NCBI GenBank assembly: GCA_002422375.1
Contig: DIUQ01000007.1
Location: forward strand, 1 to 48,120
Length of the DNA: 48,120 bases
Direction: 5' to 3'
Origin: a bacterium UBA6154
GTDB taxonomy: Bacteria > Actinomycetota > Actinomycetes > S36-B12
Position numbers and translations under genes: made by a program. Positions 2,778 to 21,245 of the stretch are shown one piece after another. The number at the start of each line of letters is the position of its first letter. The first letter of the stretch is position 1. Below the pieces are notes generated by a model, which searched no databases, was not told where the DNA came from, and was given only the letters and a program-made list of their open reading frames with translations.

Positions 2778-2815
2778 AGAGCGCCCATGAACAACATTCG
2801 CGGGCGCTCTCTAAT
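2773..2815. terminator. Bidirectional hairpin terminator between nadA and the secreted protein gene
   Basis: Arms 2773-2786 and 2802-2815 are a perfect 14-bp inverted repeat with a 15-base loop; the left arm includes the nadA stop codon. It lies between two convergent genes, and both flanks are only weakly T-rich. Confidence 0.75.
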
Positions 2816-2823
2816 CTTGGATA

Positions 2824-3342: not shown

Positions 3343-3380
3343 GGCTGCATGTTTGCACAGTGGAAACGAAATAGCGGTAT

Positions 3381-4459: not shown

Positions 4460-4461
4460 GA

Positions 4462-5379
4462 TCAGCGATCACCTAACTGAGCAGAGATTTTGGCGAGTTG
4501 CTCGAGTCGCTTGTCCAATGATGGGTGGGTGGCAAAAATCGCCTCCATGCCAAGTCCCTTATTTCCCTTAAATGCAGGCGCAAAGGCAAATGCACTCACA
4601 GGTTCCATGGCACGTAGGTCTTTGTCTGGAATTGCGCTCATTTCTCCACTGATTTTCACGAGAGCGCTCGCGAGGGCGCTGGGGCGGCCTGTCAGAAGGG
4701 CAGCGCCACGATCGGCACCCAACTCACGGTATCTGGAGAGTGCACGGATAAGGAGGAAGGAAATGAAGTAGACGAGAATCGACACCACCATGACAGCCAT
4801 AAAGACCACCGCCGTGTTTTGATCCCGACGGTCGCGCATCATGGATCCCCACATGGCGCTACGGGTGAGGAATCCGGCAAGGATGGATGTGAACGAAGCG
4901 ATTGTCATGACGGTGACATCGCGATGTGCCACATGTGAGAGCTCGTGAGCTAATACGCCTTCTAACTCTGCTTCATCCAGTTTCTTGAGGATCCCCGTGG
5001 TGACCACAACAACGGACCGATTCGGGCTCCGACCCGTGGCAAAGGCATTCGGCACGGGGGAATCAGAAATTCCGACTCGTGGTTTCTTCATATCTGCCAT
5101 GGCACAAATCCGGTCCACCAGTGCATGAAGTTGCGGGGCTTGCTCAGGGGTCACCTCAACTGCCCGCATGGCTTTCATGGAGAGCGTGTCAGAAAACCAC
5201 CATTGGAAGAACAGAAATCCTCCCGATAAGACCAAAACAAATACCGCATTAATGCCCACGGCGATCAGCACTGCCGCCAACACCACATACAAAAGACCCA
5301 AGCCAAAGAGGGTGCCAAACATTCGGGCGGTTAAACCTGAATCTTTGCCGTACCGAGTTTGTGCCATCGCTTTATTCAC
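4462..5379 (-). CDS. htpX: Membrane zinc metalloprotease HtpX
   Basis: M48-family membrane protease for quality control of damaged membrane proteins. Two N-terminal membrane segments (about residues 20-62) precede the zinc site HELSH (H145, E146, H149); two more segments follow (about 160-180 and 190-212), then the third zinc-ligand region RELGADRGAA. Length (305 aa) is normal. The frame opens with a GTG at 5379; the ATG at 5367 gives the usual MAQTRYGKDSGL start and may be the true one (GAGAGG lies 14 bases upstream of it but only 2 bases before the GTG). Downstream genes are pspAB and the SOUL protein; upstream on the same strand are the hydrolase and pspA. Confidence 0.93.
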   Translation of the reverse strand: MNKAMAQTRYGKDSGLTARMFGTLFGLGLLYVVLAAVLIAVGINAVFVLVLSGGFLFFQWWFSDTLSMKAMRAVEVTPEQAPQLHALVDRICAMADMKKPRVGISDSPVPNAFATGRSPNRSVVVVTTGILKKLDEAELEGVLAHELSHVAHRDVTVMTIASFTSILAGFLTRSAMWGSMMRDRRDQNTAVVFMAVMVVSILVYFISFLLIRALSRYRELGADRGAALLTGRPSALASALVKISGEMSAIPDKDLRAMEPVSAFAFAPAFKGNKGLGMEAIFATHPSLDKRLEQLAKISAQLGDR

Positions 5380-5423
5380 TGCCTCTCATGCTTGGCCACG
5401 TCACCACATGGCTCGTGGCCAAT

Positions 5424-6161
5424 CTATGTCGCCCAGTCTCTCCGTGCATAGTGCGCTAATTTCTCAGCCAACGCAAATGGATCAGAGAGCATGACGCAAT
5501 GGTCCCCCGCCATTCGGTCTGGCACGACACCCGCTTTGCTGGCAAAGCCTTCAGCGACCGGGGGCTTGAACGTTGCATCCTGTTCTAGCAATAGATAAAC
5601 CGACGGAATGACAACGGAATCAACTCCGCGGGCGACCTCGCTCAAGTACGGTTCAAAAGGCTGTGGTGTGAGTTGGGCGTATGCCTCCTGTGCCGCCGCT
5701 AACTCCAAATGTGAAAAGAACCGAGTTTGAGCATTCTCAAAGCTGGGCAGAATGGTGTAGTCCTCCGATTCCTGAGCCATGTCGAAATAGGTAGCTCTCC
5801 TGTCCTCAGGAATGGAATCAATTCCCCGTTCCCCAGAGTTCAACACCACACTGGCCACAAAAACCAATGCCGCAATTTTCTCTGGTCGAGCGGCTGCTAC
5901 CACAGGAAGAATGATTCCCGCCAGTGAATGACCAACGAGCACAACTCGCGCCGCATCCGTGTCATCAATCTGCTGGATAGTGGCAGTGATGTAGTCCTGC
6001 AACGTGACATCCCGCCGCGGAGTGGTGTCACTCCCTGAACCAGGGAGGTTAAATGCTGTTGCCGGCACCCCTAGCGTGTCTAGCTCTTGGATAACGCCAG
6101 ACCAGCACCAAGCGCCATGTGACGCTCCATGCACCAGAAGTAAATGAGCCGGCGAATTCAC
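5424..6161 (-). CDS. Alpha/beta hydrolase (esterase-like)
   Basis: Alpha/beta-hydrolase-fold protein (245 aa) resembling the plant methylesterase/hydroxynitrile-lyase group and its bacterial relatives. Visible elements are the oxyanion motif LLVHGASHGAWCW (8-20), the nucleophile elbow VGHSLAG with S79, and the terminal GDHCVMLSDP carrying the likely catalytic His. The third triad residue is not assigned. The GTG at 6161 is the start; pspA ends 35 bases upstream and htpX begins 44 bases downstream, so it is probably co-transcribed with the phage-shock genes. No signal peptide, so cytoplasmic. The substrate is unknown. Confidence 0.85.
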   Translation of the reverse strand: MNSPAHLLLVHGASHGAWCWSGVIQELDTLGVPATAFNLPGSGSDTTPRRDVTLQDYITATIQQIDDTDAARVVLVGHSLAGIILPVVAAARPEKIAALVFVASVVLNSGERGIDSIPEDRRATYFDMAQESEDYTILPSFENAQTRFFSHLELAAAQEAYAQLTPQPFEPYLSEVARGVDSVVIPSVYLLLEQDATFKPPVAEGFASKAGVVPDRMAGDHCVMLSDPFALAEKLAHYARRDWAT

Positions 6162-6196
6162 GCTAGGAAACCATTTTGCCTTTTATCTCAGGTGCC

Positions 6197-6922
6197 TTAT
6201 TCCTCGATGGCTTTTTTCTCTGCCGAGCCCAATTGATTCTTGAGTGCAGCAAGTTGAGCTTCAACTTCCGTTTCACTAGCCATGCGCTCAAGTTCCACGG
6301 TGATGCTGTCCTTGCTCATCCCAGACGGATCATTCAGCGCACCTGAAGCCATGAGCTCGTCGATCGCACCGGCGCGAGCTTGCATCTCCGCTGTTTTGTC
6401 TTCAGCGCGCTGCACAGCTAATCCAACGTCACCGAGTTCCGAAGAGATACCAGTAAATGCCTCATTGATTTTCGTTTGAGCCTCAGCTGCAGAGTACGTC
6501 GCCTTAATTGTTTCCTTGCGCGTGCGAAATGCCTCCACCTTGCTCTGTAACTGCTGGGAAGCAACAATCAGTTTTTCCTCTTGCTCCTGGAGTTGTGCAA
6601 GTTGACCGTTGAGGTCAGCAATTTGCTGATGCAGTCCACTACGACGAACCAGTGCTTCACGCGCGAGATCTTCGCGGTTTCCGGCTAAAGCCGCACGTGC
6701 CTGCTCCTCAAGTTTGACCTCTTGCTTCTGCAGCCCCTGTACCTGGAGCTCAATCCGCTTACGGCTGGTGGCAACGTCTGCAACACCGCGACGAACCTTT
6801 TGCAGCAGTTCCAACTGCTTTTCATAGGAATAGTCCAAAACCTCGCGAGGATCCTCAGCCTTGTTCAGAGCCTTATTCGCCTTGGACTTGAAAATTAGAG
6901 TGAAGCGCTGCCAGAGACCCAT
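6197..6922 (-). CDS. pspA: Phage shock protein A (PspA/IM30 family)
   Basis: PspA/Vipp1/IM30 family, ESCRT-III-like coiled-coil protein that binds and stabilises the inner membrane under envelope stress. The start ATG at 6922 gives MGLWQRFTLIFKSKANKAL, the amphipathic membrane-binding helix of the family, with AAGGGA just upstream; a longer open frame to 7399 is spurious because it overlaps the divergent DUF3043 gene. EDPREVLDYSYEKQLELLQ and the long Gln/Glu/Ala-rich helices follow (241 aa). It is the first gene of the leftward group pspA-hydrolase-htpX-pspAB-SOUL. The C-terminal half (DELMASGALND) matches actinobacterial PspA. Confidence 0.93.
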   Translation of the reverse strand: MGLWQRFTLIFKSKANKALNKAEDPREVLDYSYEKQLELLQKVRRGVADVATSRKRIELQVQGLQKQEVKLEEQARAALAGNREDLAREALVRRSGLHQQIADLNGQLAQLQEQEEKLIVASQQLQSKVEAFRTRKETIKATYSAAEAQTKINEAFTGISSELGDVGLAVQRAEDKTAEMQARAGAIDELMASGALNDPSGMSKDSITVELERMASETEVEAQLAALKNQLGSAEKKAIEE

Positions 6923-7027
6923 GCCATTTCCCTTCGATTGCCGATCGGTACCTGACCGGAATGTCCCTCTAGAGTAAATGGAGCAAGTAAACTGCGCACA
7001 CAGGAGTAGGGATAGTCTGAGCACATC

Positions 7028-7618
7028 ATGTTTGGACAGAAGAAAACCACCCCATCGGCCGACGTGGCACCCGCGGATTCCACCCCTTCCCAGGGAAAGG
7101 GCCGCCCCACGCCTTCCCGTAAGGAAGCGGAAGCGGCACGCAAAACAACCATCCGCGCCCCTCGGGGCACCAAAGAGGGCAAAAAGGCTGCCCGCGAGGC
7201 GGATCGGCTGGCTCGCGCCCGGCAGCGAGAAGGCATGCTGGCTGGAGACCCGCGTTACCTGCCAGCTCGAGACCAGGGCCCGGTTCGAGCATACGTCCGT
7301 GATTTTGTTGACGGGCGATACACGGTCGCCGAGTACTTCATTTTCATGGCTCTCGTGGTGCTTGTACTTGGCTTTGTTCCCAATGTTGCGGTCCAGCAAT
7401 TTGTCTCTCTGGCATTCTTCATGGTGGCTGCGCTCATTGTGCTAGACACCACGATTCTGATCATTCAATTGAATATCCGTGTCAAGAAACAATTCCCCGA
7501 TAAATCAGAGCGCAAGGGCGTGACTCTGTATGCATTAATGCGGGTGCTCCAGTATCGGCGTCTTCGCATGCCCAAGCCGCGGGTAACGCGCGGTGGTCGT
7601 TCCAAGAAAAAAGATTAA
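7028..7618 (+). CDS. DUF3043 membrane protein
   Basis: Actinobacterial DUF3043 protein (196 aa), function unknown. A long basic, Ala/Lys-rich N-terminal cytoplasmic part (residues 1-90, with TPSRKEAEAARK) leads to the conserved DPRYLPARDQGPVRAYVRDFVDGRYTVAEYF, two membrane helices (about 100-118 and 121-142) and a basic tail ending GRSKKKD. The ATG at 7028 is preceded by TAGTCT (7013-7018) with 9 bases between, so the leader is very short or absent. It is divergent from pspA across a 105-base region and is followed 9 bases later by the aldo/keto reductase, probably in one transcript. Confidence 0.88.
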   Translation: MFGQKKTTPSADVAPADSTPSQGKGRPTPSRKEAEAARKTTIRAPRGTKEGKKAAREADRLARARQREGMLAGDPRYLPARDQGPVRAYVRDFVDGRYTVAEYFIFMALVVLVLGFVPNVAVQQFVSLAFFMVAALIVLDTTILIIQLNIRVKKQFPDKSERKGVTLYALMRVLQYRRLRMPKPRVTRGGRSKKKD

Positions 7619-8959: not shown

Positions 8960-9002
8960 TTGACATGGACCCCTTCCCCGTGGTGAGGTTCGTCTACAAC
9001 TG

Positions 9003-9122
9003 AATCGACGTATGTGAATCTAGGGGAAGTTCGGTGTGAATCCGTCGCTGTCCCGCAACCGTATTTCAGGATCATTCTGATAAGTCGGAGCACCTAGCGC
9101 ATACGAGCGGTCATCCGTCGAG
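9003..9122 (+). ncRNA. Cobalamin riboswitch aptamer
   Basis: B12-sensing RNA leader. The conserved core is readable: a GGGGAAGTTCGGTGTGAATCC block (9023-9043), CTGTCCCGCAACCG (9048-9061) and a B12 box AAGTCGGAGCACCTAG (9082-9097). The closing helix is supported by two complementary pairs: TCGACG (9005-9010) with CGTCGA (9116-9121) and CGTATG (9009-9014) with CATACG (9100-9105). The aptamer looks compact compared with the long gram-negative type. It precedes the transporter operon starting at 9251 and predicts shut-off when cobalamin is abundant. Confidence 0.9.
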
Positions 9123-9138
9123 GTAACGGGACGAGCGC

Positions 9139-9154
9139 TCAAGCGAAAGCTTGA
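9139..9154 (+). promoter_or_regulatory. GAAA-tetraloop hairpin between aptamer and terminator
   Basis: TCAAGC (9139-9144) pairs with GCTTGA (9149-9154) around a GAAA tetraloop. It sits between the B12 aptamer and the terminator, the place where an expression-platform switch helix is expected. That role is inferred. Confidence 0.5.
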
Positions 9155-9159
9155 CCCCT

Positions 9160-9187
9160 CCCTTGCTGCTGTTTGGCAAGGGTTTTT
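9160..9187 (+). terminator. Riboswitch-controlled intrinsic terminator
   Basis: CCCTTGC (9160-9166) pairs with GCAAGGG (9176-9182), followed by TTTTT (9183-9187). It lies about 40 bases after the aptamer and 64 bases before the first gene, so B12 binding most likely acts on transcription termination. Confidence 0.82.
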
Positions 9188-9211
9188 ATGTGGGTTGGCT
9201 TAGCGCAGGGC

Positions 9212-9250
9212 GTGGTCCAGGGACCACTCACCTGAAAGGACCCTAGGGTC
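9212..9250. repeat. Two consecutive palindromes before the transcobalamin-like gene
   Basis: GTGGTCC/GGACCAC (9212-9218 and 9221-9227, 2-base gap) and the perfect 12-mer GACCCTAGGGTC (9239-9250), which touches the ATG at 9251 and overlaps the region of the GAAAGGA ribosome site (9234-9240). They could fold over the ribosome site or bind a protein; nothing in the sequence decides between these. Confidence 0.4.
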
Positions 9251-10303
9251 ATGAAAAGTTCCATCACCACACAACGATTACGCGCAATCGCCCTCAGTAT
9301 CGGCGCATTGGCACTGGTTGCCAACTCCGCCTCATCCCCCGCTATCGCGGCAACATCCAACAAGGGCCTCTACGGGGCACCGAATGAATATTCGTCGGTA
9401 CAGCTGCAGTCGCAGGCGATTCTTGGACTTGTTTCTGCTCGCATTACTCCCAGCGCAAGTGCCGTGAACTGGCTACTTAAGCAGCAATGCGCCAATGGCT
9501 CATTTCAGGGATATCGGGCCGATAGTTCCGTGCCATGCGGCACATCCGATCCGGTGAACTTCAGTGGTCCATCCGCGGATCAAACTGCGTGGGCAGTCAT
9601 GGCTCTCGAATCGGTTGGTCGGGAGAAGGCAGCGGAAAAGGCTGCCCGGTGGCTGGTGTCGATTGCTCAAGAGCAACCCAATGGAACTCTTGGTATCCCT
9701 TCCTATGCAGGAGGAACACCGGATGCGAACTCGAGCGGATTAAGTTTGGCCGCCCTTCGGGGGCTGGGAGTGAGCCAAACCGCAACCAAAAAAATACAAC
9801 GATTCCTCGGGTCCCTGGTCATTCCATGTGATGAATCGCGAGGAGGAGCGGCTCAATTCCAAACTGCGGTGCCCGGTGCAAATAACGCCGCCAGCGCGCA
9901 AGCGTATTTTGGAATTACAACGTCGCTTCCGGTGTACTCACCACCGAATAAAGGAAAGAACCCTGCATGCGGAAAGAACGCGACCAATAAACTGGGGAGT
10001 TACCTCGCCAAGCAGCTCACCGCGAATTCGCTTTTGAGCTACTACCCCTACGACGGAAATGACCTTGGAAACACTGCTCTCACGGTGATTGCCATGTCGG
10101 GCAAATCAGTTGCACAGCGCGCTGTAGCCAATGCAACGACTAGCCTAAAAAGCAATGCCCGGGACTGGGCGCTGAAAGATGGGCAGCCAAATGCTGGTGC
10201 CTTGGGATCCCTGCTGATGGTTAGTGTGGCGACTAACTCCAATGCCAAGAACTTTGGCGGCGTGAATCTCATTTCCGCACTGCAGTCGTCTGAAACCAAG
10301 TAG
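9251..10303 (+). CDS. Secreted alpha/alpha-barrel protein, transcobalamin-like candidate
   Basis: 350-aa exported protein with a Sec signal (cleavage near residue 34, after SPAIAA) and five to six helical repeats of the terpenoid-cyclase/prenyltransferase barrel type: AVNWLLKQQCANGSFQGY, SADQTAWAVMALESVGR..AARWLVS, DANSSGLSLAALRGLGVS, NNAASAQAYFGI, DLGNTALTVIAMSG and GALGSLLMVSVAT. Animal intrinsic factor and transcobalamin bind B12 with the same fold. Four Cys-containing spots (C80, C96, PCDES, PACGK) could form disulfides. No cyclase DxDD motif was seen, arguing against an enzyme. GAAAGGA precedes the ATG. As first gene behind the B12 riboswitch and upstream of an ECF importer it is best read as an extracellular cobalamin-binding protein; that role is inference. 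Confidence 0.78.
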   Translation: MKSSITTQRLRAIALSIGALALVANSASSPAIAATSNKGLYGAPNEYSSVQLQSQAILGLVSARITPSASAVNWLLKQQCANGSFQGYRADSSVPCGTSDPVNFSGPSADQTAWAVMALESVGREKAAEKAARWLVSIAQEQPNGTLGIPSYAGGTPDANSSGLSLAALRGLGVSQTATKKIQRFLGSLVIPCDESRGGAAQFQTAVPGANNAASAQAYFGITTSLPVYSPPNKGKNPACGKNATNKLGSYLAKQLTANSLLSYYPYDGNDLGNTALTVIAMSGKSVAQRAVANATTSLKSNARDWALKDGQPNAGALGSLLMVSVATNSNAKNFGGVNLISALQSSETK

Positions 10304-10978
10304 ATGCCTACTGCGCCCATCTGCCGCATGGCACAGCGAACTGCACTGACACTTCTTGCAGTGATCATCGTTCTCTTTGCCATGCCCGGATGGGCGCAGG
10401 CAAGCACCTATCGATTTTGGAACTTCTGGGTCGTTGAATCCGGACAATGGGTGTATTCACCACTCGGTCCAGCGAGCACGTTCCCCGCAGACGGCTCAGT
10501 ACAAGGCTGGGTATTTGCTGCGACGGATGCTGATTCCGCATCCGTCGCTCCGTCCATGGATCCGGCTGCGATTTTTGATTCAGCCTGCAGTGCTACCCCC
10601 AATGATCCTGAGCTCAAGCGAGTGGTTTTTGTGATCGATTCCGGTTCCCTCGATATTGCCCCTGACGGCGAGGTTCCCCCCACCGTGACCGTCCTCTGCG
10701 CTACTGGAGCCCTCGATGCAAACGGCTACGAATTACTCAATTCAGTCGTCGATTTACGCACAGAAAATGGCTTTATCTGCGCCATGAACTCCTACCCGGC
10801 CATGGAGTGTTCCGCGGAGTTCGACCCTCGAGCCACGCAGGAATCAACAGCGGTATCTGAGGGCGAGCCCCAGCAGACACCTCCACCGTCTTCGAGCGTG
10901 GCTCCGTTAGGAACGGCAGTCGCCATTGGTCTAGCCGCTGTAGCTGGCTTCTTTTTCTGGCGCCGGCGGACAGCATGA
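10304..10978 (+). CDS. Exported membrane-anchored protein, SCO2322 family
   Basis: 224-aa protein matching, from memory, the SCO2322 family found in actinobacterial ECF loci. It has an N-terminal signal peptide (about to residue 33, AQAS), an extracellular domain beginning YRFWNFWVVESGQWVYSPLG with PADGSVQGWVFA, four cysteines (DSACSA, VLCAT, FICAM, MECSA), a Pro/Ser/Thr-rich linker (QQTPPPSSS) and a C-terminal membrane helix (about 199-217) with the stop-transfer RRRTA. The ATG directly abuts the preceding stop; MAQRTALT at 10328 is an alternative start. The aromatic-rich domain may cooperate with the preceding barrel protein in holding B12 at the membrane (inference). Confidence 0.8.
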   Translation: MPTAPICRMAQRTALTLLAVIIVLFAMPGWAQASTYRFWNFWVVESGQWVYSPLGPASTFPADGSVQGWVFAATDADSASVAPSMDPAAIFDSACSATPNDPELKRVVFVIDSGSLDIAPDGEVPPTVTVLCATGALDANGYELLNSVVDLRTENGFICAMNSYPAMECSAEFDPRATQESTAVSEGEPQQTPPPSSSVAPLGTAVAIGLAAVAGFFFWRRRTA

Positions 10979-12117
10979 GTAATTTTTCTATCCTGACACG
11001 GCGCCGTTGGCTTCATCCCGTTGCCTGGTGGATATGGGCACTGTCCCTTGCTGCGGCGGCTACTCGCGTGACAAACCCACTGCTCCTCATGCTCCTCATT
11101 TCCGCAGCAGCAATCGTGGTCTCAGCCCGCAAACCAGATGCTCCTTGGGGTAAGTCCTTTGAGTTCTTTCTGGCACTCGGGGTCATGATCATTGTCATTC
11201 GCGTTGTCTTTCAAGTTATTTTCGGTGCCGCAACAGGCAATCATGAACTGTTTATCCTTCCTGGATTCGCACTGCCGACCTGGATGAGTGGACTACGTAT
11301 CGGTGGACCGGTCATGGTGGAATCCCTGCTCGCCGCGTTGTACGACGGACTTCGATTAGCAACAATCGCCATAGTTGTTGGCGCCGCAAATTCACTGGCT
11401 TCACCGTCACGATTGCTAAAGGCCATGCCTTCCGCTCTCTATGAGTTAGGGGTGAGCGTGGTCGTAGCGCTGAGTTTTATTCCGCAACTCATTACCGATG
11501 CCGTTCGCATCCGCGAGATGCGGCGTTTGAGGGGACGTCGCGTCCATGGCGTTAGGGCATACACCAGCCTCGCCATGCCCGTCCTTGCTGGTGCCCTGGA
11601 CAGATCCATCAATATCGCGGCATCTATGGACTCACGCGGCTACGGGCGAGTAGGCGACACATCACCGCGACTGCGCCGGATGATCACCGCGTCACTCGTC
11701 GTGGCAACCATCCTGGTAATCATTGGTCTCTATGGACTGTTTACTTCCGATGCACACCCACTACTGGGGCTTCCGGCCTTAACCCTGGGGGTTGGGGTGG
11801 CCCTTTTTGCCATGTGGCAATCGGGACGCAGCCATCAGCGAACCGTGTACCGGCCGGATACATGGTCGCTGCCGGAGTATGCGGTTGTCGCATCCGGGCT
11901 GCTCACCCTCGGCATCTACGTGTGGGCTGACATGCGAGTCGGAAACTCGCTGACCCTATGGGAACAGCTTCACCCCGCACTCGATCAATGGCCGACCCTT
12001 CCAATCTGGGGGGTTATGGCATTCCTGATCTCGATAACACCTGCGGTCACTACGCCGCCACCGCCATCAACACTCATGTCAACACCACCCCGCGAGAAAG
12101 TAGGTTCATTAGCATGA
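10975..12117 (+). CDS. ECF transporter transmembrane subunit EcfT (CbiQ family)
   Basis: Energy-coupling-factor T subunit (380 aa), which links the S component to the ATPases. It has five or more hydrophobic segments, the cytoplasmic coupling helices EMRRLRGRRVHGVRAY (around 180-195) and AASMDSRGYGR (around 215-225), the second being the ARG-type signature of EcfT. The C-terminal third adds further membrane segments and a Pro-rich tail (TPPPPSTLMSTPP), longer than the usual 260-270 aa. The start ATG overlaps the preceding TGA (ATGA, 10975-10978), and its own stop overlaps the ATPase start, so translation is coupled throughout the operon. Confidence 0.9.
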   Translation: MSNFSILTRRRWLHPVAWWIWALSLAAAATRVTNPLLLMLLISAAAIVVSARKPDAPWGKSFEFFLALGVMIIVIRVVFQVIFGAATGNHELFILPGFALPTWMSGLRIGGPVMVESLLAALYDGLRLATIAIVVGAANSLASPSRLLKAMPSALYELGVSVVVALSFIPQLITDAVRIREMRRLRGRRVHGVRAYTSLAMPVLAGALDRSINIAASMDSRGYGRVGDTSPRLRRMITASLVVATILVIIGLYGLFTSDAHPLLGLPALTLGVGVALFAMWQSGRSHQRTVYRPDTWSLPEYAVVASGLLTLGIYVWADMRVGNSLTLWEQLHPALDQWPTLPIWGVMAFLISITPAVTTPPPPSTLMSTPPREKVGSLA

Positions 12118-13751
12118 TCACATTCGACCGGGTCACATTTACTTATCCGGAAACAGATGACTGTGAATCCCCTGAGCCGGTTCTCCGAGACATCTCGGTG
12201 CATATCGCCGACGGGGAACTCGCACTTCTCGTGGGAGCGACCGGTAGCGGCAAGACAACATTTCTCCGGGCAATTAACGGTCTGGTCCCCCACTTCTCCG
12301 GCGGGTTTCTTCAGGGTCGAATCGAGATCAAAGGGCGCAGCACCCAGGACTATCCTCCCCGCGAGCTTGCTGATCTCGTGGGGTTTGTCCCCCAGGACCC
12401 CGTCACTGGGTTTGTCACGGATCTCGTCGAGGACGAGCTCGCCTATTCCATGGAGAGTCTGGGGATCGAACCCCAGATAATGCGCCGCCGTGTTGAGGAA
12501 ACGCTAGACCTCCTGGGGCTGGCCGATTTACGGAATAGGCCATTGCGTTCATTGAGCGGTGGGCAGCAACAACGTGTGGCGATTGGCTCTGTGTTAACGG
12601 CGCACCCAGAAGTTTTAGTGCTGGATGAGCCAACGTCGGCACTTGATCCCGGTGCCGCGGAGGAAGTCCTCGCCGCCCTTCACCGGTTGGTACACGATCT
12701 CGGTGTGACCGTGGTCATGGCGGAACATCGCCTGGAACGAGTGGTGCAGTATGCCGACTCCATTGTCATGCTGGAGAACGGGCAGATTCATAACGGAACA
12801 CCCAGCGCCATGATGCAAAGCTCCCCCATTGCTCCACCCGTCATCCACCTCGGTCGCCTTGCGGGATGGGATCCGCTCCCGGTATCCATCCGCGACGCTC
12901 GGCGAAACGCCGGACCACTACGAAGTAGCTTGGCTGGCCAGCGCCCGCGGCTTCGTGTCGTCGCAGAATCAACACCCGTGATTGCCCAGGTGCGCGATCT
13001 TGATGTCGGGTACGGCCATTCCGTTGTTTTGCGGGATATCACCTTGAATGCCAGTTCCGGCGAGATCATTGCCTTAATGGGACGCAATGGCGCAGGGAAG
13101 ACAACATTGCTACGAACCCTGATCGGACTACACACACCCACGTCAGGTCTTGTGCGCGTGAACGAGCTCGATCCGATCAAAATTCCAAATCGGGACCTGC
13201 TTCACCATGTTGGACTCGTGCCCCAAGAACCTAGCGACCTTTTTGAGGCACAGAGCATTGCTATTGAATGTCGTAACTCGGATGCGGATGCCGGATGCGA
13301 ACCCGGCACCACACGTGCGCTCCTCGCGTTATTGGCACCTGAAGTTATTGACTCGACACATCCGCGGGACCTCTCTGAGGGACAACAAATGATTTTGGCC
13401 CTCTGCATGATCGTGGCATCAAAGCCGCCATTGATCTTGCTAGATGAACCAACCCGCGGGCTGGATTACCCCACAAAAACCAGACTCGCTGACATATTGC
13501 GGGGGCTGGCGGAAACGGGACACTGCGTCATTTTGGCAACACATGACGTAGAGCTGGTCGCTGACATGGCAACCCGTGTTGTTATGTTGGGCGACGCTGA
13601 AGTTGTGGCGGACGGTGCCACGGGGAATGTCATAACCGGATCACCCATGTTCGCGCCACAGGTCGCCAAGATCTTGGCGCCTTCGCAATGGTTGACCGTC
13701 ACTGAAGTAGAGGAAGCACTCCACAATCACGATCACGTGGAAACCTTGTGA
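12114..13751 (+). CDS. Fused double ABC ATPase EcfA-EcfA'
   Basis: 545-aa protein with two ABC nucleotide-binding domains in one chain, replacing the separate EcfA1/EcfA2 pair. Domain 1: Walker A GATGSGKTT (41-49), signature LSGGQQQR, Walker B VLVLDEPTSALD, switch His in AEHR. Domain 2: Walker A GRNGAGKTT (about 323-331), signature LSEGQQ, Walker B LILLDEPTRGLD, switch ATHD. Both sites look competent. The ATG at 12114 (MITFDRVTFTYPE) overlaps the EcfT stop as ATGA; an open frame reaching back to 11958 is inside ecfT and rejected. It energises import of the operon's substrate. Confidence 0.93.
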   Translation: MITFDRVTFTYPETDDCESPEPVLRDISVHIADGELALLVGATGSGKTTFLRAINGLVPHFSGGFLQGRIEIKGRSTQDYPPRELADLVGFVPQDPVTGFVTDLVEDELAYSMESLGIEPQIMRRRVEETLDLLGLADLRNRPLRSLSGGQQQRVAIGSVLTAHPEVLVLDEPTSALDPGAAEEVLAALHRLVHDLGVTVVMAEHRLERVVQYADSIVMLENGQIHNGTPSAMMQSSPIAPPVIHLGRLAGWDPLPVSIRDARRNAGPLRSSLAGQRPRLRVVAESTPVIAQVRDLDVGYGHSVVLRDITLNASSGEIIALMGRNGAGKTTLLRTLIGLHTPTSGLVRVNELDPIKIPNRDLLHHVGLVPQEPSDLFEAQSIAIECRNSDADAGCEPGTTRALLALLAPEVIDSTHPRDLSEGQQMILALCMIVASKPPLILLDEPTRGLDYPTKTRLADILRGLAETGHCVILATHDVELVADMATRVVMLGDAEVVADGATGNVITGSPMFAPQVAKILAPSQWLTVTEVEEALHNHDHVETL

Positions 13752-14566
13752 AGCACGCTATCCCCGTAGGTAGAACGTCTGCCGTCGCCATTGGCGTGAT
13801 TTCCATTATTGGGGTGGCGAGTTTTTTGTGGCCATTTTTCGCACCGTCGGATTCATTTGTTGTCGCTCATTCCACCGATGCACCTATTCTCTTTGCAGCA
13901 CTCATTCCCCTCCTGCTCGTTGTTGTTCTGGCGCAACTCTCGGATGGCGGAATGAACGCCAAATCAATAGCCCTACTCGGAGTTCTTGCTGCCGTCATTG
14001 CCGCACTTCGACCACTGGGGGCTGGGCTCGGAGGCATTGAGCCTATTTGGGTCATAGTCATTCTGGCCGGGCGTGCGCTCGGGCCTGGATTCGGCTTTGT
14101 CCTCGGTTCGGTTTCCCTTTTTGTGTCCGCCATGTTCACCGGAGGTGTTGGCCCGTGGCTGCCATTCCAAATGTTGGCTGCTGCCTGGGTTGGCCTGGGC
14201 GCAGGTTTGCTGCCGAAGGCACGGGGTGGACGGGAGATTCTGCTTCTTGGCATGTATTCCACCGCCGCCATGGTCGCCTACGGATTTATCTTGAACCTGT
14301 GGTTCTGGCCGTTTTCGATTAATTTGCCGGAACAGATCGCATTCGTCCCCGGCGCAGGGCTCGCAGAAAATCTCGGGGCCTGGATTCGTTTCAATATTGC
14401 AACCTCGTTGGGATTTGATATTCCTCGCGCAGTTCTGACAGTGCTTCTCATTGTGGTTGCCGGCAGACCGATTCTCTTCCTCCTCCGGCGAGCATCCCGA
14501 CAGGCTGCGTTCGGGGCCCCCGTTACATTCGATCCGCTGAACCAACGCGCACCGGCTAGTTCCTGA
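13748..14566 (+). CDS. ECF transporter S component, probable cobalamin-specific
   Basis: 272-aa integral membrane protein with about six to seven hydrophobic segments and the look of an ECF S component (LGVLAAVIAALRPLGAGLGGIEPIWVIVILAGRALGPGFGF, then FTGGVGPWLPFQMLAAAWVG). The S component fixes substrate specificity. No ligand motif can be read with certainty; cobalamin is inferred from the riboswitch, the transcobalamin-like protein and the CobT-like gene. The GTG at 13748 overlaps the ATPase stop (GTGA). The Arg-rich C-terminal tail is cytoplasmic. Confidence 0.85.
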   Translation: MKHAIPVGRTSAVAIGVISIIGVASFLWPFFAPSDSFVVAHSTDAPILFAALIPLLLVVVLAQLSDGGMNAKSIALLGVLAAVIAALRPLGAGLGGIEPIWVIVILAGRALGPGFGFVLGSVSLFVSAMFTGGVGPWLPFQMLAAAWVGLGAGLLPKARGGREILLLGMYSTAAMVAYGFILNLWFWPFSINLPEQIAFVPGAGLAENLGAWIRFNIATSLGFDIPRAVLTVLLIVVAGRPILFLLRRASRQAAFGAPVTFDPLNQRAPASS

Positions 14567-14574
14567 ATGCACAC

Positions 14575-14580
14575 TATTCT
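14575..14580 (+). promoter_or_regulatory. -10 hexamer for a leaderless CobT-like transcript
   Basis: TATTCT ends 6 bases before the GTG at 14587, the spacing expected if transcription starts at the start codon. It would allow expression of this gene apart from the riboswitch. No clear -35 box. Confidence 0.45.
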
Positions 14581-14586
14581 GGGCAG

Positions 14587-15315
14587 GTGATGCATTCCAC
14601 GCCCGAGTCTCTCGTTGAGCGGATAGCGTCATTTACTCCTCGCGAATCCATGCCACTCAATCCGCTCGTGACCGGCTCACTTGCCGAATTGGGCACATGG
14701 GTTACTGCACGCGTCGACACTCCCGTAACTGTCGCTCGAATCGATACAGATGCCATGGAAGTTACCGGGTTCCGGGCCGGGTCAGACTCCGCGAACGCGG
14801 CCATTGACTCTGGAGCAACCATCATCTTTCTCACCGCGTCAAGCAACACATGCTCCCATCTTGCACGGGCGATCATTGGCCTCCTGACTCGTAAAGATGC
14901 CTTCTCCGTGTATTTCCAAGAGCACGGTGTTACCGACCAACAGGCAATGGAATCTCTCCAAGTTATTCGCCAGCACATCAGCACATTGATCCCCCAGCGT
15001 GGTGAACCCATGCAGGTAGCAGCATCCTCACCTGCTTGCGAATACACCGTAGGTCTGTTGTTGACAGCAAGTGCACGCATGACACCGGTCATCACCGGAA
15101 CAACCGAACACCTAGCGGCCGCATTGATCGCCCAACGGCTCAGCATGAAAGCCACGAGTTGGTGGCGACATGGGTCCACGTCACCGGACCCCGCAGTCGC
15201 AGGTGCCGTTGATCGACTGGGAATACCAGCCGGCTTACCACTTGACCTTGCTGACAACTCTGGAGTCGGGGCGATTATTAGCTCTGAATTACTTGTTCAA
15301 TTTATTGCCCCGTAG
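14587..15315 (+). CDS. Shortened CobT-like protein (DMB phosphoribosyltransferase family)
   Basis: 242-aa protein related to CobT, which makes alpha-ribazole phosphate for the lower ligand of B12; normal CobT is about 350 aa. The N-terminal TGSLAELGTWVTARV matches the CobT start, then roughly 100 residues are missing, and the remainder matches the C-terminal half (SPACEYTVGLLLTASARMTPVITGT, then the LPLDLADNSGVGAI block). By hand alignment the usual GNTT region reads ASSNTC, one catalytic Glu is retained (E in ACEYT) and the second, in GEGTGA, is Asp. It could be a reduced enzyme or a B12/base-binding regulator. GTG 14587 or ATG 14590 may start it; it follows the S gene by 20 bases. Confidence 0.72.
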   Translation: MMHSTPESLVERIASFTPRESMPLNPLVTGSLAELGTWVTARVDTPVTVARIDTDAMEVTGFRAGSDSANAAIDSGATIIFLTASSNTCSHLARAIIGLLTRKDAFSVYFQEHGVTDQQAMESLQVIRQHISTLIPQRGEPMQVAASSPACEYTVGLLLTASARMTPVITGTTEHLAAALIAQRLSMKATSWWRHGSTSPDPAVAGAVDRLGIPAGLPLDLADNSGVGAIISSELLVQFIAP

Positions 15316-15325: not shown

Positions 15326-16432
15326 CTATTTTGGGCTAGCGGCAACAAAGGGAAGTGCGGTCCGCTCACAATCAAGTGCTTTGCCCCGCGCATCAACATA
15401 AAACCCAGACGGGTCACTGTCCAATGCCGAGGACTCAACGAGTGCCAAGGCAATCCCCTGCTTCAACAACGGTGAATACGTGCCGCTGGTGACTTCTCCC
15501 ACGCGGTGGGTTAGTTCCGGGTCGGTATACACGCCCATGTGTGCGCGGGGAATTCCCCGGCCAACAACCCGTAACGCTACGCGCTTGCGTGGCGCCCCCG
15601 ACTCGCGCATGTCGAGCAGGGCGGCTTTGCCATGGAACTCAGGCTTGGCCCAGCCCACCGACCAGGCGAGTAATGCCTCAACCGGTGAGATCTCTGGGGA
15701 AATATCCTGTCCATGAAGCGGATAGCCCATTTCAGTTCTCAAGATGTCACGAGCACCGAGTCCAGCAGGGGCACCGCCGAGCGCTGTCGTAGCCTCCATC
15801 AGGGCCTCCCACAGTGCAGGCAGGACACCGGACGGTGCCACGATTTCATAACCCACTTCACCCGTATATCCAGTTCGGCACACAGTGATGGGGCAATTAC
15901 CGAACTCGCTAGATGTGAAGCTCATGTAGTCCAGATCCGTCGGTAGTCCAACGGAGTTCAGCACCTCTGCCGAGCGAGGACCTTGCACCGCGACAATGCC
16001 TAGGTCAGTGTGAAGATTTTCCAGAGTGATATTTCCGGGGAGTGCACTGGCCAATGCAGCGGCGACGGTGTCCGCATTCGTGGCGTTAGGAATAATGAAC
16101 ACGCTGTCGTCAGACTCGCGGTAGACAATAAAGTCGTCTGTTACGCCACCTGAGTCATTTAACAACATGGAGTACTGCGCCTGACCCGCCGTGATTTTGC
16201 CTAATTCGCTCGTCACAATTGCATTGAGCGCGGCGACCGCGCCCGGTCCAGTAACTCGGAGTTTGCCCATATGGGAAACATCAAAAAGTCCCACACTGGA
16301 TCTCACTGCCTGGTGCTCCGCGACCGCTCCGGAATATTCAATCGGCATTTCCCATCCCCCGAAATCCGCCATTTTGGCTCCCTTTTCTTGGTGAGCCGAA
16401 AAGAGTGGGGTTCGCTGGAGATCCGTTGCCAT
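15326..16432 (-). CDS. gcvT: Glycine cleavage system T protein (aminomethyltransferase)
   Basis: Aminomethyltransferase of the glycine cleavage system; it transfers the aminomethyl carbon from lipoylated GcvH to tetrahydrofolate. The 368-aa protein has the family blocks TPLFSAHQEKGAKMADFGGWEMPIEY, VGLFDVSHMGKLRVTGPGA, the folate-site stretch CRTGYTGEVGYEI, and GLGARDILRTEMGYPLHGQDI. The ATG at 16432 (MATDLQRTPL) is preferred over a start 9 bases upstream because AAGGTGG lies 5 bases before it. It is convergent with the CobT-like gene and divergent from pepA across only 35 bases. gcvH and gcvP are not in the window. Confidence 0.95.
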   Translation of the reverse strand: MATDLQRTPLFSAHQEKGAKMADFGGWEMPIEYSGAVAEHQAVRSSVGLFDVSHMGKLRVTGPGAVAALNAIVTSELGKITAGQAQYSMLLNDSGGVTDDFIVYRESDDSVFIIPNATNADTVAAALASALPGNITLENLHTDLGIVAVQGPRSAEVLNSVGLPTDLDYMSFTSSEFGNCPITVCRTGYTGEVGYEIVAPSGVLPALWEALMEATTALGGAPAGLGARDILRTEMGYPLHGQDISPEISPVEALLAWSVGWAKPEFHGKAALLDMRESGAPRKRVALRVVGRGIPRAHMGVYTDPELTHRVGEVTSGTYSPLLKQGIALALVESSALDSDPSGFYVDARGKALDCERTALPFVAASPK

Positions 16433-16455
16433 GCACACCACCTTAGACGCATGAT

Positions 16456-16461
16456 TAGATT
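16456..16461 (+). promoter_or_regulatory. -10 hexamer for leaderless pepA
   Basis: TAGATT ends 6 bases before the pepA ATG, with no Shine-Dalgarno sequence between. It lies in the short gcvT-pepA divergent region, so the two promoters must overlap. Confidence 0.6.
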
Positions 16462-16467
16462 GTTGAC

Positions 16468-17991
16468 ATGCCTACTCTGTCAGCGGATTACACCGCCACC
16501 CCATCCTTCACTCTGACCACCACCAAGCCCAAGGACATATCCGCAGATGTCCTCCTGGTCAACACAACGCCACTCTCCGGCAAAGCCAAAGGCGTGGAAT
16601 TAGTGGCACATGGGTTTACTCCTGCCCAGGCAAAGAAAATGCAGACAGACATTGCTGCCCTGGGTGGAACTGGCAAGGCCGGAGAGGTGATCACCCTCTC
16701 CGGCGTGACGGGCGTCAAGGCACCCATGGTGATCGCGGTTGGTCTCGGCGACTTTCGCAAGAAGTTTGACCTTGAGGAATTTCGTCGCGCACTAGGCAAC
16801 GGAATTCGGTCGCTCAGCGGAAAGAAAAAGGTGGCGATCTCCGCCGGTCACGCACCGGAGCACATTTATGCCACCGTCGTTGCGGTTGGCCTCGCGTCTT
16901 ATTCGTTTACTGCATACCGAGGGAAATCGGGCACTAAGGCCGGGACTCTTCCCTCGACTTTCGTCCTGTCTATCCCAGGGCAGATCACACCTGATTTCCG
17001 TACTGCAGTTACCGACGCATCGATCATTGTGAATTCGATATTCCTCACCCGGGACCTGATCAACACTCCGCCTAATGACCTGCCGCCCGCTGAACTCGCG
17101 TCCCGGGCCAAAAAGTCACTGAGCGCCCTTCCTGTGACCGTCAAAATATGGGACGAGAAGGCGCTGGCCACGGCTGGCTGCGGTGGGATCCTCGGTGTGG
17201 GCTTGGGTTCCTCACGGCCACCGCGCTTGGTCAAAATGACTTATGCACCCAAGGGTGCCCGTCAGCACCTCGCGTTGGTGGGTAAAGGCATCACATTCGA
17301 CACAGGTGGCATTTCCATTAAACCCGCCGCAAAGATGCACGAAATGAAGGCGGACATGTCCGGAGCGGCCGCGGTGGTCGGCGCCATGCAAGCCATTGCA
17401 GCGCTCGGGCTCAATGTCAATGTGACCGGTTGGATTGCTGTTGCTGAAAACATGCCCAGTGGCACGGCCCAACGCCCTGGTGATGTGCTCACCACTGTCG
17501 ACGGCACCACCGTCGAGGTACTCAACACGGATGCTGAAGGTCGATTGGTCTTGGCCGATGCCCTGGGCATGGCGGTGGCCGAGAAACCAGATGTCCTCAT
17601 CGATGTCGCGACGTTGACCGGCGCTCAGCGGATTGCCCTCGGTCGCCGGATTGCTGGAGTCATGAGCAACACAGATTCCACCCGTGAACTGGTCGTGGCA
17701 GCTGCGACCGAGGTTGGCGAGGAGGCGTGGCCCATGCCCCTTCCCAGTGATCTGCGCGAAACGTTGAATTCCGACACCGCCGATATTGCCAATATTGGCG
17801 ATGGCCTCGCCGGCATGCTGTCAGCAGGTGTTTTCCTCCGCGAATTTGTGCCAGATTCCCAGAAGTGGGTACATATTGACGTGGCAGGCCCTGCTTACAA
17901 CGATGCCGCCCCTTATGGCTACACCCCCAAGGGCGGAACTGGAGCCATGGTCCGGACATTTGTCCAGATTGCCGCGGATCTCGCCGAGTAG
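16468..17991 (+). CDS. pepA: Leucyl aminopeptidase (M17 family)
   Basis: Cytosolic M17 leucyl aminopeptidase (507 aa, normal length), a two-metal hexameric enzyme releasing N-terminal residues in peptide turnover. The catalytic domain shows the metal-binding motifs VGKGITFDTGGISIKP (about 271-286, with metal-ligand K273 and D278) and the signature NTDAEGRLVLADAL starting at 353, with the catalytic Arg. The N-terminal macro-like domain is more variable. No Shine-Dalgarno precedes the ATG, and a -10 hexamer sits 6 bases upstream. Next is lpd, 77 bases downstream. Confidence 0.96.
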   Translation: MPTLSADYTATPSFTLTTTKPKDISADVLLVNTTPLSGKAKGVELVAHGFTPAQAKKMQTDIAALGGTGKAGEVITLSGVTGVKAPMVIAVGLGDFRKKFDLEEFRRALGNGIRSLSGKKKVAISAGHAPEHIYATVVAVGLASYSFTAYRGKSGTKAGTLPSTFVLSIPGQITPDFRTAVTDASIIVNSIFLTRDLINTPPNDLPPAELASRAKKSLSALPVTVKIWDEKALATAGCGGILGVGLGSSRPPRLVKMTYAPKGARQHLALVGKGITFDTGGISIKPAAKMHEMKADMSGAAAVVGAMQAIAALGLNVNVTGWIAVAENMPSGTAQRPGDVLTTVDGTTVEVLNTDAEGRLVLADALGMAVAEKPDVLIDVATLTGAQRIALGRRIAGVMSNTDSTRELVVAAATEVGEEAWPMPLPSDLRETLNSDTADIANIGDGLAGMLSAGVFLREFVPDSQKWVHIDVAGPAYNDAAPYGYTPKGGTGAMVRTFVQIAADLAE

Positions 17992-18068
17992 CCCACCCTC
18001 AGCAATTCGGCAATTCCCTCTCATTGCCCCCCATGTGCTGATTCCTAGCGCGGTGGAAGGATAGGGGT

Positions 18069-18113
18069 ATGACTTCTGCTGACATGACTTCTGCTGATAC
18101 GACTTCTGTTGAT
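18069..18113 (+). repeat. Three tandem 15-bp units at the lpd 5' end
   Basis: Units 18069-18083, 18084-18098 and 18099-18113 differ at one to three positions each and encode MTSAD, MTSAD and TTSVD. The first two both begin with ATG, so the duplication has created an extra in-frame start codon. Confidence 0.9.
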
Positions 18114-19466
18114 GTAGTAATTCTTGGCGGAGGTAGTGGTGGCTATGCCTGCGCGCTGCGATCTGCTGAACTAGGGCTCAGTGTCGTCTTGATCGACAAA
18201 GACAAGTTGGGTGGCACCTGCCTGCACCGTGGTTGCATTCCGACCAAAGCCCTCCTCCATGCGGCGGAGGTTGCTGATTCGAGTCGTGAGTCAGCTCAAT
18301 TCGGGGTCACAACCACGTTGCACGGCATTGATATGCCAAAAGTCAATGAATACCGCGACGGCGTGGTGGGTCGCCTATATAAAGGGTTGCAAGGCCTGGT
18401 CAAGAGTCGAAATGTGACATTCGTAGAAGGTGAAGGAAAGCTCACTGGACCACATAGCGTCACGGTCAACGGACATACCTACATTGGTAAAAATATCGTG
18501 CTGGCGACAGGCTCCTATGCGCGCACGATTCCCGGTCTCGAGATTAACGGCAAGATCATGACATCCGACCAAGCCTTGACGTTGGACTACGTCCCCGCGA
18601 GCGTCATTGTGCTGGGTGGTGGCGTGATCGGTGTCGAGTTTGCCAGTGTGTGGAAATCCTTTGGTGCGGACGTCACCATTGTTGAGGGACTCCCCCACCT
18701 CGTGCCCAATGAAGAGGAAGCAATATCTAAGGCCCTTGAGCGCGCCTATCGCAAGCGCGGAATCAATTTCATACTTGGAAAGAAATTCGCATCCGCCACC
18801 CAGGACGCCGCTGGTGTCCACGTGACACTGGAAGATGGCACAACACTCGATGCTGACGTGCTCTTAGTTGCCATTGGGCGCGGACCGAACACACAGGGCA
18901 TGGGGTACGAGGAACAAGGTGTTGGCATGGATCGTGGCTGGGTCCTAGTTGACGAGCGTCTGCGCACCAACCTTCCGGGTGTTTACGCCGTTGGCGACAT
19001 AACACCTGGTTTGCAATTGGCACATCGCGGCTTCCAACATGGCATTTTCGTTGCCGAAGAGATCGCGGGAATGAATCCCGTCATCATCGAGGACATCAAT
19101 ATTCCCAAGGTCACCTACTGTGAGCCGGAAGTAGCCAGTGTCGGCATGACGGAGGCCCAAGCAAAGGCAGCCTTCGGGGACAACATCGTGTCCTACGAAT
19201 ACAACCTCGGCGGCAATGGAAAGAGTCAAATTCTCGGAACATCAGGATTCATTAAATTGGTTCAACGCAAGGACGGACCTGTTGTCGGAATTCATATGGT
19301 CGGTTCCCGAGTGGGAGAGCAAATCGGCGAAGCCCAGCTGATTGTCAACTGGGAAGCTACTCCAGCGGATGTTGCCACGTTGATCCACGCACATCCCACT
19401 CAAAATGAAGCCATGGGAGAAGCCCACCTCGCACTGGCCGGAAAGCCCCTGCACGCCCACGCGTAA
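18069..19466 (+). CDS. lpd: Dihydrolipoyl dehydrogenase (E3)
   Basis: FAD-dependent E3 subunit that reoxidises dihydrolipoyl groups of 2-oxo-acid dehydrogenases and the glycine cleavage system. The redox disulfide is GGTCLHRGCIPTKALL (C51, C56); the FAD motif (VVILGGGSGGYACA) and NAD motif (VIVLGGGVIGVEFASVW) are intact, and the catalytic HAHPTQNEAMGEA is near the C-terminus. The first 15 codons are three copies of a 15-bp unit giving MTSAD-MTSAD-TTSVD, so the second ATG (18084) is an alternative start. It lies 34 bases before sucB and probably shares its transcript. Confidence 0.95.
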   Translation: MTSADMTSADTTSVDVVILGGGSGGYACALRSAELGLSVVLIDKDKLGGTCLHRGCIPTKALLHAAEVADSSRESAQFGVTTTLHGIDMPKVNEYRDGVVGRLYKGLQGLVKSRNVTFVEGEGKLTGPHSVTVNGHTYIGKNIVLATGSYARTIPGLEINGKIMTSDQALTLDYVPASVIVLGGGVIGVEFASVWKSFGADVTIVEGLPHLVPNEEEAISKALERAYRKRGINFILGKKFASATQDAAGVHVTLEDGTTLDADVLLVAIGRGPNTQGMGYEEQGVGMDRGWVLVDERLRTNLPGVYAVGDITPGLQLAHRGFQHGIFVAEEIAGMNPVIIEDINIPKVTYCEPEVASVGMTEAQAKAAFGDNIVSYEYNLGGNGKSQILGTSGFIKLVQRKDGPVVGIHMVGSRVGEQIGEAQLIVNWEATPADVATLIHAHPTQNEAMGEAHLALAGKPLHAHA

Positions 19467-19500
19467 CTCATTCACGTAGCCACACAACAAGGAGAGCCAC

Positions 19501-21243
19501 ATGTCCGTCTCGGTGAAAATGCCACAACTCGGCGAAAGCGTTACCGAAGGGACCATTACCCGCTGGTTGAAAAATGTCGGGGACCACGTAACCGCCGACG
19601 AACCCTTAGTTGAGGTGTCAACGGACAAGGTCGACACTGAAATCCCTTCACCGGCAACAGGCATTCTGCTCTCACTCACCGCCAACGAAGACGACGTCGT
19701 TGAGGTGGGGTCTGAACTGGCCGTGATCGGTGAGGAATCCGAGGCCGCTGCACCAGCTCCCGCTGCAGAACCGTCAGCGCCTGCTCCAGCTGTCGCTGTT
19801 GAGACAGTCGTGTCCGAGCCCGTTGTCGCAGAGACAGTCATTGCAGAGACAGTCATTGCAGAGACACCAGCCGTGGTCGAACAGACTGTCGCTGCAACTG
19901 GTAACGAGACCGTCATCACTTTGCCCGCACTCGGCGAAAGCGTGACGGAGGGCACCATTACCCGTTGGCTTAAGGCAGTCGGTGACACGGTTGCCGCTGA
20001 TGAACCACTCGTGGAAATCTCAACCGACAAAGTTGACACAGAAATCCCCTCACCCGCAGCGGGTGTGCTCCTCTCCATTGCCGCGCCGGAAGACGCCGTC
20101 ATTGCTGTCGGTGCTGAACTCGGACGCATTGGATCCGCAGCTGCCGCTACTGCTCCGCCGGCGCCCCCAACACCGGCGCCCACACCTGCTGCACCCGTAC
20201 CTGCATCTGTCACAACCCCTGCACCCACGCCTGCTGCACCGACACCAGCTACACCGGCAGAGCCCGCGTCAACCGATGACGTCGGTTACGTCACACCACT
20301 TGTCCGCCGCCTAGCCGCGGACACCGGAGTGGATTTGTCCCGCATTGCCGGAACAGGTGCTGGTGGGCGAATCACCAAAGCAGACGTCCTTGGCGCTGTG
20401 GGAAATCAGCCGGTTGCCAGCACACCAGCTGCACCTGCGCCCACAACACCAGCAACTCCTGCACCTGCGACGCCTGCGACTCCTGCTCGTGCCGCCGCCC
20501 CAGCAACACCCACCGGTCCTGTTCCTGGGACTACAGAGTCGCTGTCACGGTTGCGCAAAGTCATTGCCGAGCGCATGGTGGAATCGCTCCAGGTATCCGC
20601 GCAATTAACCACCGTCATTGAAGTTGATGTCACCAAAATTGCAGCACTACGCAATCGTGTCAAGAAGTCATTTGAACTGCGTGAAGGAGTCAAACTCACC
20701 TTCATGCCATTCTTTGTTAAGGCGGCCGTTGAAGCGCTCAAGCAGTACCCCCAGGTCAACGCGTCCATTGACATGACCGCCGGGACGGTGACGTACTACA
20801 GCGCGGAAAACATAGGAATTGCTGTCGACACCGAGCGCGGACTTCTCGTTCCTGTTGTTCATAACGCTGGTGAACTCAATATTGCCGGCATCAGCCGGAG
20901 AATTGCTGACCTAGCAGAGCGCACCCGTACCGGCAAAGTCTCGCCCGATGACCTATCAGGCGGCACATTTACCGTGACAAACACAGGTAGCCGCGGAGCC
21001 TTGTTTGACACACCAATTGTCAATCAACCCCAGGTGGCAATTTTGGGTACCGGTGCCGTGGTCAAACGCCCTGTTGTCGTGACAGATGACGGTGGCCAGG
21101 ATGTCATTGCCATTCGTTCCATGGTGTACCTCGCGCTGTCTTATGACCACCGGTTAGTTGATGGTGCCGATGCGGCTCGATTCCTCACCACCATGAAGAG
21201 TCGACTCGAAGATGCCGCATTTGATGCTGAACTAGGTATCTGA
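19501..21243 (+). CDS. sucB: 2-oxo-acid dehydrogenase E2, SucB type (dihydrolipoamide acyltransferase)
   Basis: E2 core of a 2-oxo-acid dehydrogenase complex (actinobacterial SucB/DlaT type, 580 aa). Two lipoyl domains carry the modified lysines K43 and K177, both in [13 protein letters not shown]. Long Ala/Pro/Thr-rich linkers flank a peripheral-subunit-binding domain ([23 protein letters not shown]...). The catalytic domain ends with [11 protein letters not shown]550 being the active-site His. Linker codons include a 15-bp duplication (19828-19857). GGAGAG precedes the ATG. E1 is not in the window; lpd is just upstream, and lipB/lipA, which lipoylate this protein, are about 2.2 kb downstream. 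Confidence 0.95.
19828..19866 (+). repeat. 15-bp tandem duplication in the sucB linker
   Basis: Unit GCAGAGACAGTCATT at 19828-19842 and 19843-19857, with a partial third copy to 19866. It encodes AETVI twice in the flexible linker between the two lipoyl domains. Confidence 0.9.
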
Positions 21244-21245
21244 CC

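Follow-up and report, generated by a model that had tools for sequence, protein, structure and literature searches.

In a 48,120-nucleotide stretch of the actinomycete genome UBA6154 (contig DIUQ01000007.1; hereafter the window), a cobalamin riboswitch is followed on the forward strand by six closely packed genes. We propose that this operon probably codes for a B12-regulated importer of the energy-coupling factor (ECF) class, related to CbrT, together with a split, transcobalamin-like capture module made of two extracellular proteins. One of these, here called alpha (P0001), is a predicted exported alpha/alpha toroid; the other, beta (P0002), is a predicted exported protein with a C-terminal membrane anchor. 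A first-pass annotation had read the locus as a bacterial transcobalamin system. B12 regulation, a CbrT-related importer, a toroid and gene linkage all spoke for that reading, whereas a specific kinship of alpha with transcobalamin did not emerge.

Operon layout and the ECF importer

The riboswitch aptamer (adenosylcobalamin/cobalamin type, 8996..9141) matched RF01482 with 56.8 bits (E 6.7e-08), which exceeds the gathering cut-off of 50, and was the sole Rfam match in the window. Behind it lies an intrinsic-terminator-like hairpin with a T run (9160..9187), the probable expression platform, whose stem of 9 pairs and TTTTT tail occupy 9160-9182. It folds as a hairpin with a z score of only −1.43, equally good folds being found in 19 of 200 shuffles, and the region held 13 terminator-like sites against 6.0 ± 2.6 in shuffles. 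B12 regulation of the operon is thus supported on sequence grounds. The genes code for alpha (9251..10303), beta (10304..10978), EcfT (10975..12117), a double EcfA ATPase (12114..13751), an ECF S component (13748..14566) and a shortened CobT-like protein (14587..15315). The first two abut, each of the next three junctions overlaps by 4 bases, and a gap of 20 bases precedes the sixth gene. Riboswitch, terminator and packed genes are therefore as the first-pass annotation had described them. The same genes in the same order behind a riboswitch were found in a metagenome-assembled genome of Candidatus Nanopelagicales (L001) and in an uncultured bacterium (L002).

The assignment of an ECF importer, with B12 as its predicted substrate class, was also supported. 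EcfT is identified by conserved synteny and by a match to PF02361 (CbiQ) of 24.3 bits, just under the cut-off of 25. EcfA contains two ABC_tran stretches, with matches to TIGR04521 and TIGR04520, and the S component passed the cut-off of PF12822 (ECF_trnsprt; 32.6 against 30.7 bits). A profile of window-type S components (A6) aligned by hhalign at 99.8% with a profile of eleven S components from DUF4430 operons (A7), which in turn matched chain A of 6FNP, the CbrT of Lactobacillus delbrueckii, at E 9.6e-25. Homology of the window S component to CbrT is thus supported indirectly, via A7, and transport of cobalamin is predicted from it. According to the accessible portions of PMC5997447, L. delbrueckii CbrT binds cyanocobalamin with a dissociation constant of 9.2 nM and also binds cobinamide. 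ECF-CbrT of L. delbrueckii (PDB 6FNP) and the window importer are alike in the S family (by profile), in EcfT plus EcfA and in their B12 substrate class. The window operon differs in having its own T and a fused A, a cobalamin riboswitch and two extracellular proteins, while the L. delbrueckii cluster reads nrdJ-cbrS-cbrT-pduO and the same portions of that paper mention no extracellular partners.

The sixth gene (DBI_PRT, 61.3 bits) had been counted as part of the system, a claim that was not supported. Its product covers only positions 136-311 of the 329 in DBI_PRT, the N-terminal part of the profile being missing, and we therefore regard it as a shortened CobT-like protein, possibly inactive or altered. 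Besides the window, just two close relatives (L075 and L076) among 43 loci have such a gene adjoining the operon, and L074 has a weak match further off, so that it appears to be a passenger of the window lineage. As a separate observation on importer architecture, single frames of 1006-1134 amino acids in L137, L148, L150 and L171 each combine matches to EcfT, EcfA and S, and a beta gene adjoins or overlaps their start; by their matches, these are apparently candidate one-chain ECF importers.

The two exported proteins

The AlphaFold2 model of alpha is a toroid with 12 main helices (predicted local distance difference test score 89.8; predicted template modelling score 0.87) and matches structures of the terpene-cyclase fold, as expected for the secreted alpha/alpha-barrel protein that had been proposed. 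Over residues 15-346 the sequence scored 154.9 bits against SCO2321_fam (NF053823), below the cut-off of 300; judged by sequence, alpha is related to this equivalog family and lies outside the equivalog itself. Matches to the toroid families of squalene cyclases and prenyltransferases stayed below cut-off (PF13243, 22.5 against 26.1), and a Pfam scan of alpha returned no match to PF01122 (Cobalamin_bind). An alignment (A1) of alpha with 86 of 93 homologues, leaving out P0026, P0028, P0087, P0089, P0095, P0097 and P0099, revealed conserved Q, N, T and D at the N-termini of the inner helices. The C-terminus of the window alpha has low hydropathy and lacks a membrane anchor; in 19 other loci alpha ends in a hydrophobic segment that carries basic residues. 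As far as the model goes, kinship with the transcobalamin alpha domain would be at the level of the fold only.

Beta belongs to SCO2322_fam (NF040672; 123.9 bits, cut-off 85) and has, at its C-terminus, a hydrophobic segment with arginines behind it. Both family names derive from Streptomyces coelicolor genes, in agreement with the SCO2321-SCO2325 region named in the first-pass annotation; these families share the operon order with ECF parts, and their names carry no function. Searching 396 Actinomycetota genomes with the SCO2322 family gave matches in 58, over cut-off in 22 and partial in the remaining 36. Five genomes (G308, G296, G131, G249 and G340) contained two pieces in swapped order, for example profile positions 70-141 before 3-66. 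Local frame searches placed the C-terminal half ahead of the N-terminal half in L034, L035, L036, L037, L039 and L041, and the order was collinear in all 23 loci L054-L076.

The relation between the two orders was evaluated with A3, a profile of the unpermuted beta domain. The core of the window beta scored 41.3 bits against A3 as encoded (positions 75-130) and 72.3 bits when rotated (8-130); in the rotation scan, scores formed a plateau between core positions 55 and 70 and were highest at 60. Rotation raised the mean A3 score of all 27 family members from 43.7 to 78.9 bits; the profile-profile alignment grew from 71 to 116 columns and its probability from 98.5% to 99.7%. Because rotation raises the scores and the two-piece matches are swapped, we conclude from these comparisons that the window beta is a circularly permuted version of the domain that occupies the same operon slot in other Actinomycetota. 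Support from a separate source comes from PF28005, a precomputed assignment shared by permuted and unpermuted proteins: it is present on all 26 SCO2322 homologues and on 9 of the 42 hits of a separate search, including fused proteins of unpermuted order, though our own Pfam scan did not return it. Such a permutation within one operon slot is a clear-cut example of a fold being rewired in nature. The C-terminus of the window beta also weakly matches the GVDTG sorting signal (below cut-off, E 0.0024), and its relative in L073 weakly matches CoaP_CTERM.

The unpermuted domain leads on to DUF4430. In hhalign the two aligned at 81% (E 1.2e-05) over 92 columns, most of the domain length, and controls consisting of a reversed profile and four unrelated ones gave at most 0.7%. 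When a DUF4430 profile of 28 actinobacterial domains was searched against PDB at E up to 10, five sequences only were matched, among them transcobalamin-1 (E 0.053), the beta domain of transcobalamin-2 (E 0.8) and two that are apparently unrelated. The Pfam model PF14478 (DUF4430) found no match in beta by Pfam scan and matched one of 23 unpermuted relatives (E 0.019). In animal TCN proteins DUF4430 sits in the C-terminal region, as stated in the available part of PMC4350170. Each link of the chain from SCO2322 through the unpermuted relative and DUF4430 to transcobalamin is supported by profile comparison, its ends not being directly joined, and beta would accordingly resemble the C-terminal (beta) domain of transcobalamin. 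If beta is a permuted DUF4430-like domain, the parallel with transcobalamin extends to two domains, not one.

Linkage and fusion across Actinomycetota

Alpha and beta are joined in one chain in 21 of 167 proteins and in six locus frames (L038, L042, L052, L136, L140 and L153). As P0126 equals the L052 frame and P0129 the L038 frame, the distinct alpha-beta chains number 25. The domain order in the 21 proteins is alpha-beta in 14, beta-alpha in six and beta-alpha-beta in one, the beta match of P0166 being weak (16 bits). Fused alpha and the window alpha family aligned at 99.8% in profile comparison. Several fused proteins, including some of Euzebya, carry cell-wall-binding CWB2 repeats. Alpha is also fused to S, in a frame of 678 amino acids in L131 and in P0167, which JGI names an ECF substrate-specific component. 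Both kinds of fusion argue for one physical assembly. In the window, alpha and beta lie on two genes, and the one-chain form was seen only in relatives.

We surveyed the surroundings of these genes from the beta side and from the S side. Of 43 SCO2322-type beta genes, 41 were preceded on their own strand, at a distance of at most 6.5 kb, by an RF00174 match. Eighteen of these matches exceeded the Rfam cut-off and 23 did not; sub-threshold matches reach as low as 14.8 bits and count only by position. The two genes that had none are at G106:C5 and G184. Such a match preceded 20 of 28 DUF4430 places, over cut-off in 14; the 43 and 28 places of this tally are a part of all family matches. All 23 loci of SCO2322 order, which include two close relatives of the window, contained T and A, with S in 22 and alpha in 21. 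Among 19 unpermuted loci, T, A and S occurred in 17 and alpha in 14. DUF4430 genes were present in 91 of the 396 genomes, and 29 of their loci held T in 17, A in 24, S in 22 and alpha in 15 (L127 is included here although it also holds an SCO2322-like beta, and L050 was dropped as beta is absent). Ten of 28 DUF4430 loci (L115, L116, L119-L122, L124, L125, L132 and L133) had the order DUF4430-EcfT-EcfA-EcfS-alpha; in the remaining ones alpha or ECF genes were missing or the order was another. These beta-side counts hold partly by construction, because part of the counted loci had gone into building profiles A3, A4, A5 and A7.

The S-side count used loci from which the profiles applied there had not been built. 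The S component was matched at E up to 1e-20 in 94 of the 396 genomes, and 39 further S loci were chosen mainly for an absent or weak SCO2322 family match. Beta was present in 29 of them and alpha in 24; split by family match, beta occurred in 14 of 22 loci that had no SCO2322-family match and in 15 of 17 that had a weak match. In seven of the 10 S loci without beta, the contig breaks off beside the ECF genes or close by. The exported pair is thus frequently linked with a CbrT-type importer, and the co-occurrence of the pair with S and riboswitch, which the first-pass annotation had suggested surveying, was frequent.

Some loci hold additional proteins. Operons at L043:8134-15137 and L127:2171-4474 combine an unpermuted SCO2322-like beta, a DUF4430 protein and alpha. 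A large exported-looking protein is encoded between riboswitch and DUF4430 gene at L116:4573-7254. In L109, L111 and L114, large proteins adjoining DUF4430 genes match DUF4430 and beta-propellers (PQQ_2 and Beta-prop, partly below cut-off); a beta-propeller that binds B12 is known from Bacteroides (BtuG).

A proposed capture mechanism and its alternatives

In transcobalamin and intrinsic factor, B12 is sandwiched between the two domains. By analogy, cobalamin or another corrinoid would be gripped between secreted alpha and membrane-anchored beta, and beta would hand it from its tether at the membrane to the CbrT-like S component; we infer the corrinoid binding, the alpha-beta sandwich and the hand-over from the composition of the operon and its relatives. 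With two separate chains, either half-site might have low affinity and the clasp might open again. Human B12 carriers bind so tightly that release takes proteolysis, as the accessible text of PMC5997447 states; a two-chain clasp opening at the S component would solve this release problem without proteolysis. A wider proposal, which we hold tentatively and with slightly less than even confidence, is that the split form is a reversible clasp, that transcobalamin-type carriers are the usual outer module of actinobacterial CbrT importers, their toroid and DUF4430-type domain sharing one chain, lying on two, or having the beta domain permuted, and that animal carriers share ancestry with them or descend from them.

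The animal carriers transcobalamin, intrinsic factor and haptocorrin are like the window pair in combining a toroid with a DUF4430-like beta domain, both extracellular, and the fused relatives keep the transcobalamin order, N-terminal alpha and C-terminal beta, in 14 of 21 cases. In contrast to the animal carriers, the window has two genes, a permuted and membrane-anchored beta, and an ECF importer instead of endocytosis. BtuCDF is similar in that an extracytoplasmic protein, BtuF, feeds a B12 ATP-binding cassette importer, but its folds differ and its importer is of type II instead of ECF. General Pfam and NCBIfam family scans found no BtuF-type domain in genes 1 and 2. Importer class and carrier fold were already known. 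Among open-licence papers, the only one listed that mentions SCO2321-SCO2325 concerns a transdermal peptide, six name DUF4430, and four mention transcobalamin together with ECF transporters. The combination, a function for SCO2321 and SCO2322 and the permutation are apparently new in open-licence papers, where we found no description; a transcobalamin-like bacterial pair with an ECF importer is not described in the available portions of PMC5997447, PMC6072759 and PMC2667541.

Several observations weigh against a transcobalamin-like capture module. The structures closest to the alpha model are class II terpene cyclases (Foldseek, VIA), no transcobalamin is among the 50 structure matches listed, and alpha sequence profiles searched against PDB did not reach transcobalamin; the structural comparison proposed in the first-pass annotation thus upheld the toroid and not the specific kinship. 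Pfam Cobalamin_bind was matched by just two of eight fused relatives, below cut-off. On the beta side, the DUF4430 profile found its best PDB match in a putative metal-binding protein, 3u7z (E 0.0019), and SCO2322 and DUF4430 compared directly align only weakly (34-51% over 59-67 columns) with no help from rotation, which is why the link runs via the unpermuted intermediate. The A6 profile alone had no meaningful PDB match. Linkage is also incomplete: among 28 DUF4430 loci, eight had no upstream riboswitch match (two of them at a contig end), five no ECF gene and 14 no alpha, and three complete S loci (L141, L167 and L170) lacked beta.

That alpha and beta are carriers at all is questioned by the L. 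delbrueckii system, in which CbrT captured B12 without such extracellular partners, binding it in vitro and, together with its ECF module, transporting it, according to the available sections of PMC5997447. The pair could then be assembly or tethering parts, for example for cell-wall docking or CbrT gating, with CbrT alone capturing B12. The CWB2 repeats on some fused relatives and the alpha-S fusions fit such a structural role too. However, alpha-beta fusions mostly in transcobalamin order, combined with the DUF4430 resemblance, point to a ligand-clasping pair, and we consider a purely structural role unlikely. Still less probable, in our judgement, is a module that captures a non-cobalamin corrinoid or precursor, such as cobinamide or other cobamides, with cobalamin as one ligand among them. 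The uptake of cobinamide by CbrT, reported in the same sections of PMC5997447, and the CobT-like gene at the end of the window operon would suit it, but that gene codes for a shortened protein and is not a conserved companion of the system, and the presence of a riboswitch cannot discriminate between ligands.

The likeness of alpha to class II terpene cyclases would also suit a role as a secreted squalene-cyclase/prenyltransferase-type enzyme that modifies a ligand or a lipid, the neighbourhood of beta being secondary. The catalytic motif of these cyclases is DxDD(TA), and a D-x-D-D string reminiscent of cyclase catalysis occurs in 31 of the 87 alpha sequences in A1. The window alpha, however, has DGND at residues 268-271 and a PF13243 score below cut-off, which sets it apart from class II terpene cyclases, and the relatives mostly have DGDDFGNT (22 of the 31 read YDGDDFGNT) in place of DxDDTA. 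Together with the export of alpha, the polar residues conserved at its inner-helix N-termini and its frequent linkage and fusion with B12-importer parts, this makes an enzymatic role very improbable.

In ECF importers, substrate binding is ascribed to the S component. A transcobalamin-like pair, if it acts as proposed, would add a second layer of B12 capture in many actinobacteria, and would give functions to two protein families (SCO2321 and SCO2322) and to part of bacterial DUF4430. It would also suggest where the animal B12 carriers came from, and would open a way to test how a clasp releases B12 to an importer.

The flanks of the operon, at window positions 1587-7399 and 15326-33445, contain ordinary chromosomal genes, as judged from ten proteins scanned. 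These include NadA, an M48 peptidase, an alpha/beta hydrolase, PspA/IM30, GcvT, an epimerase, glutamine synthetase and GlnE, as well as a pyridine nucleotide-disulphide oxidoreductase with a 2-oxoacid dehydrogenase acyltransferase.

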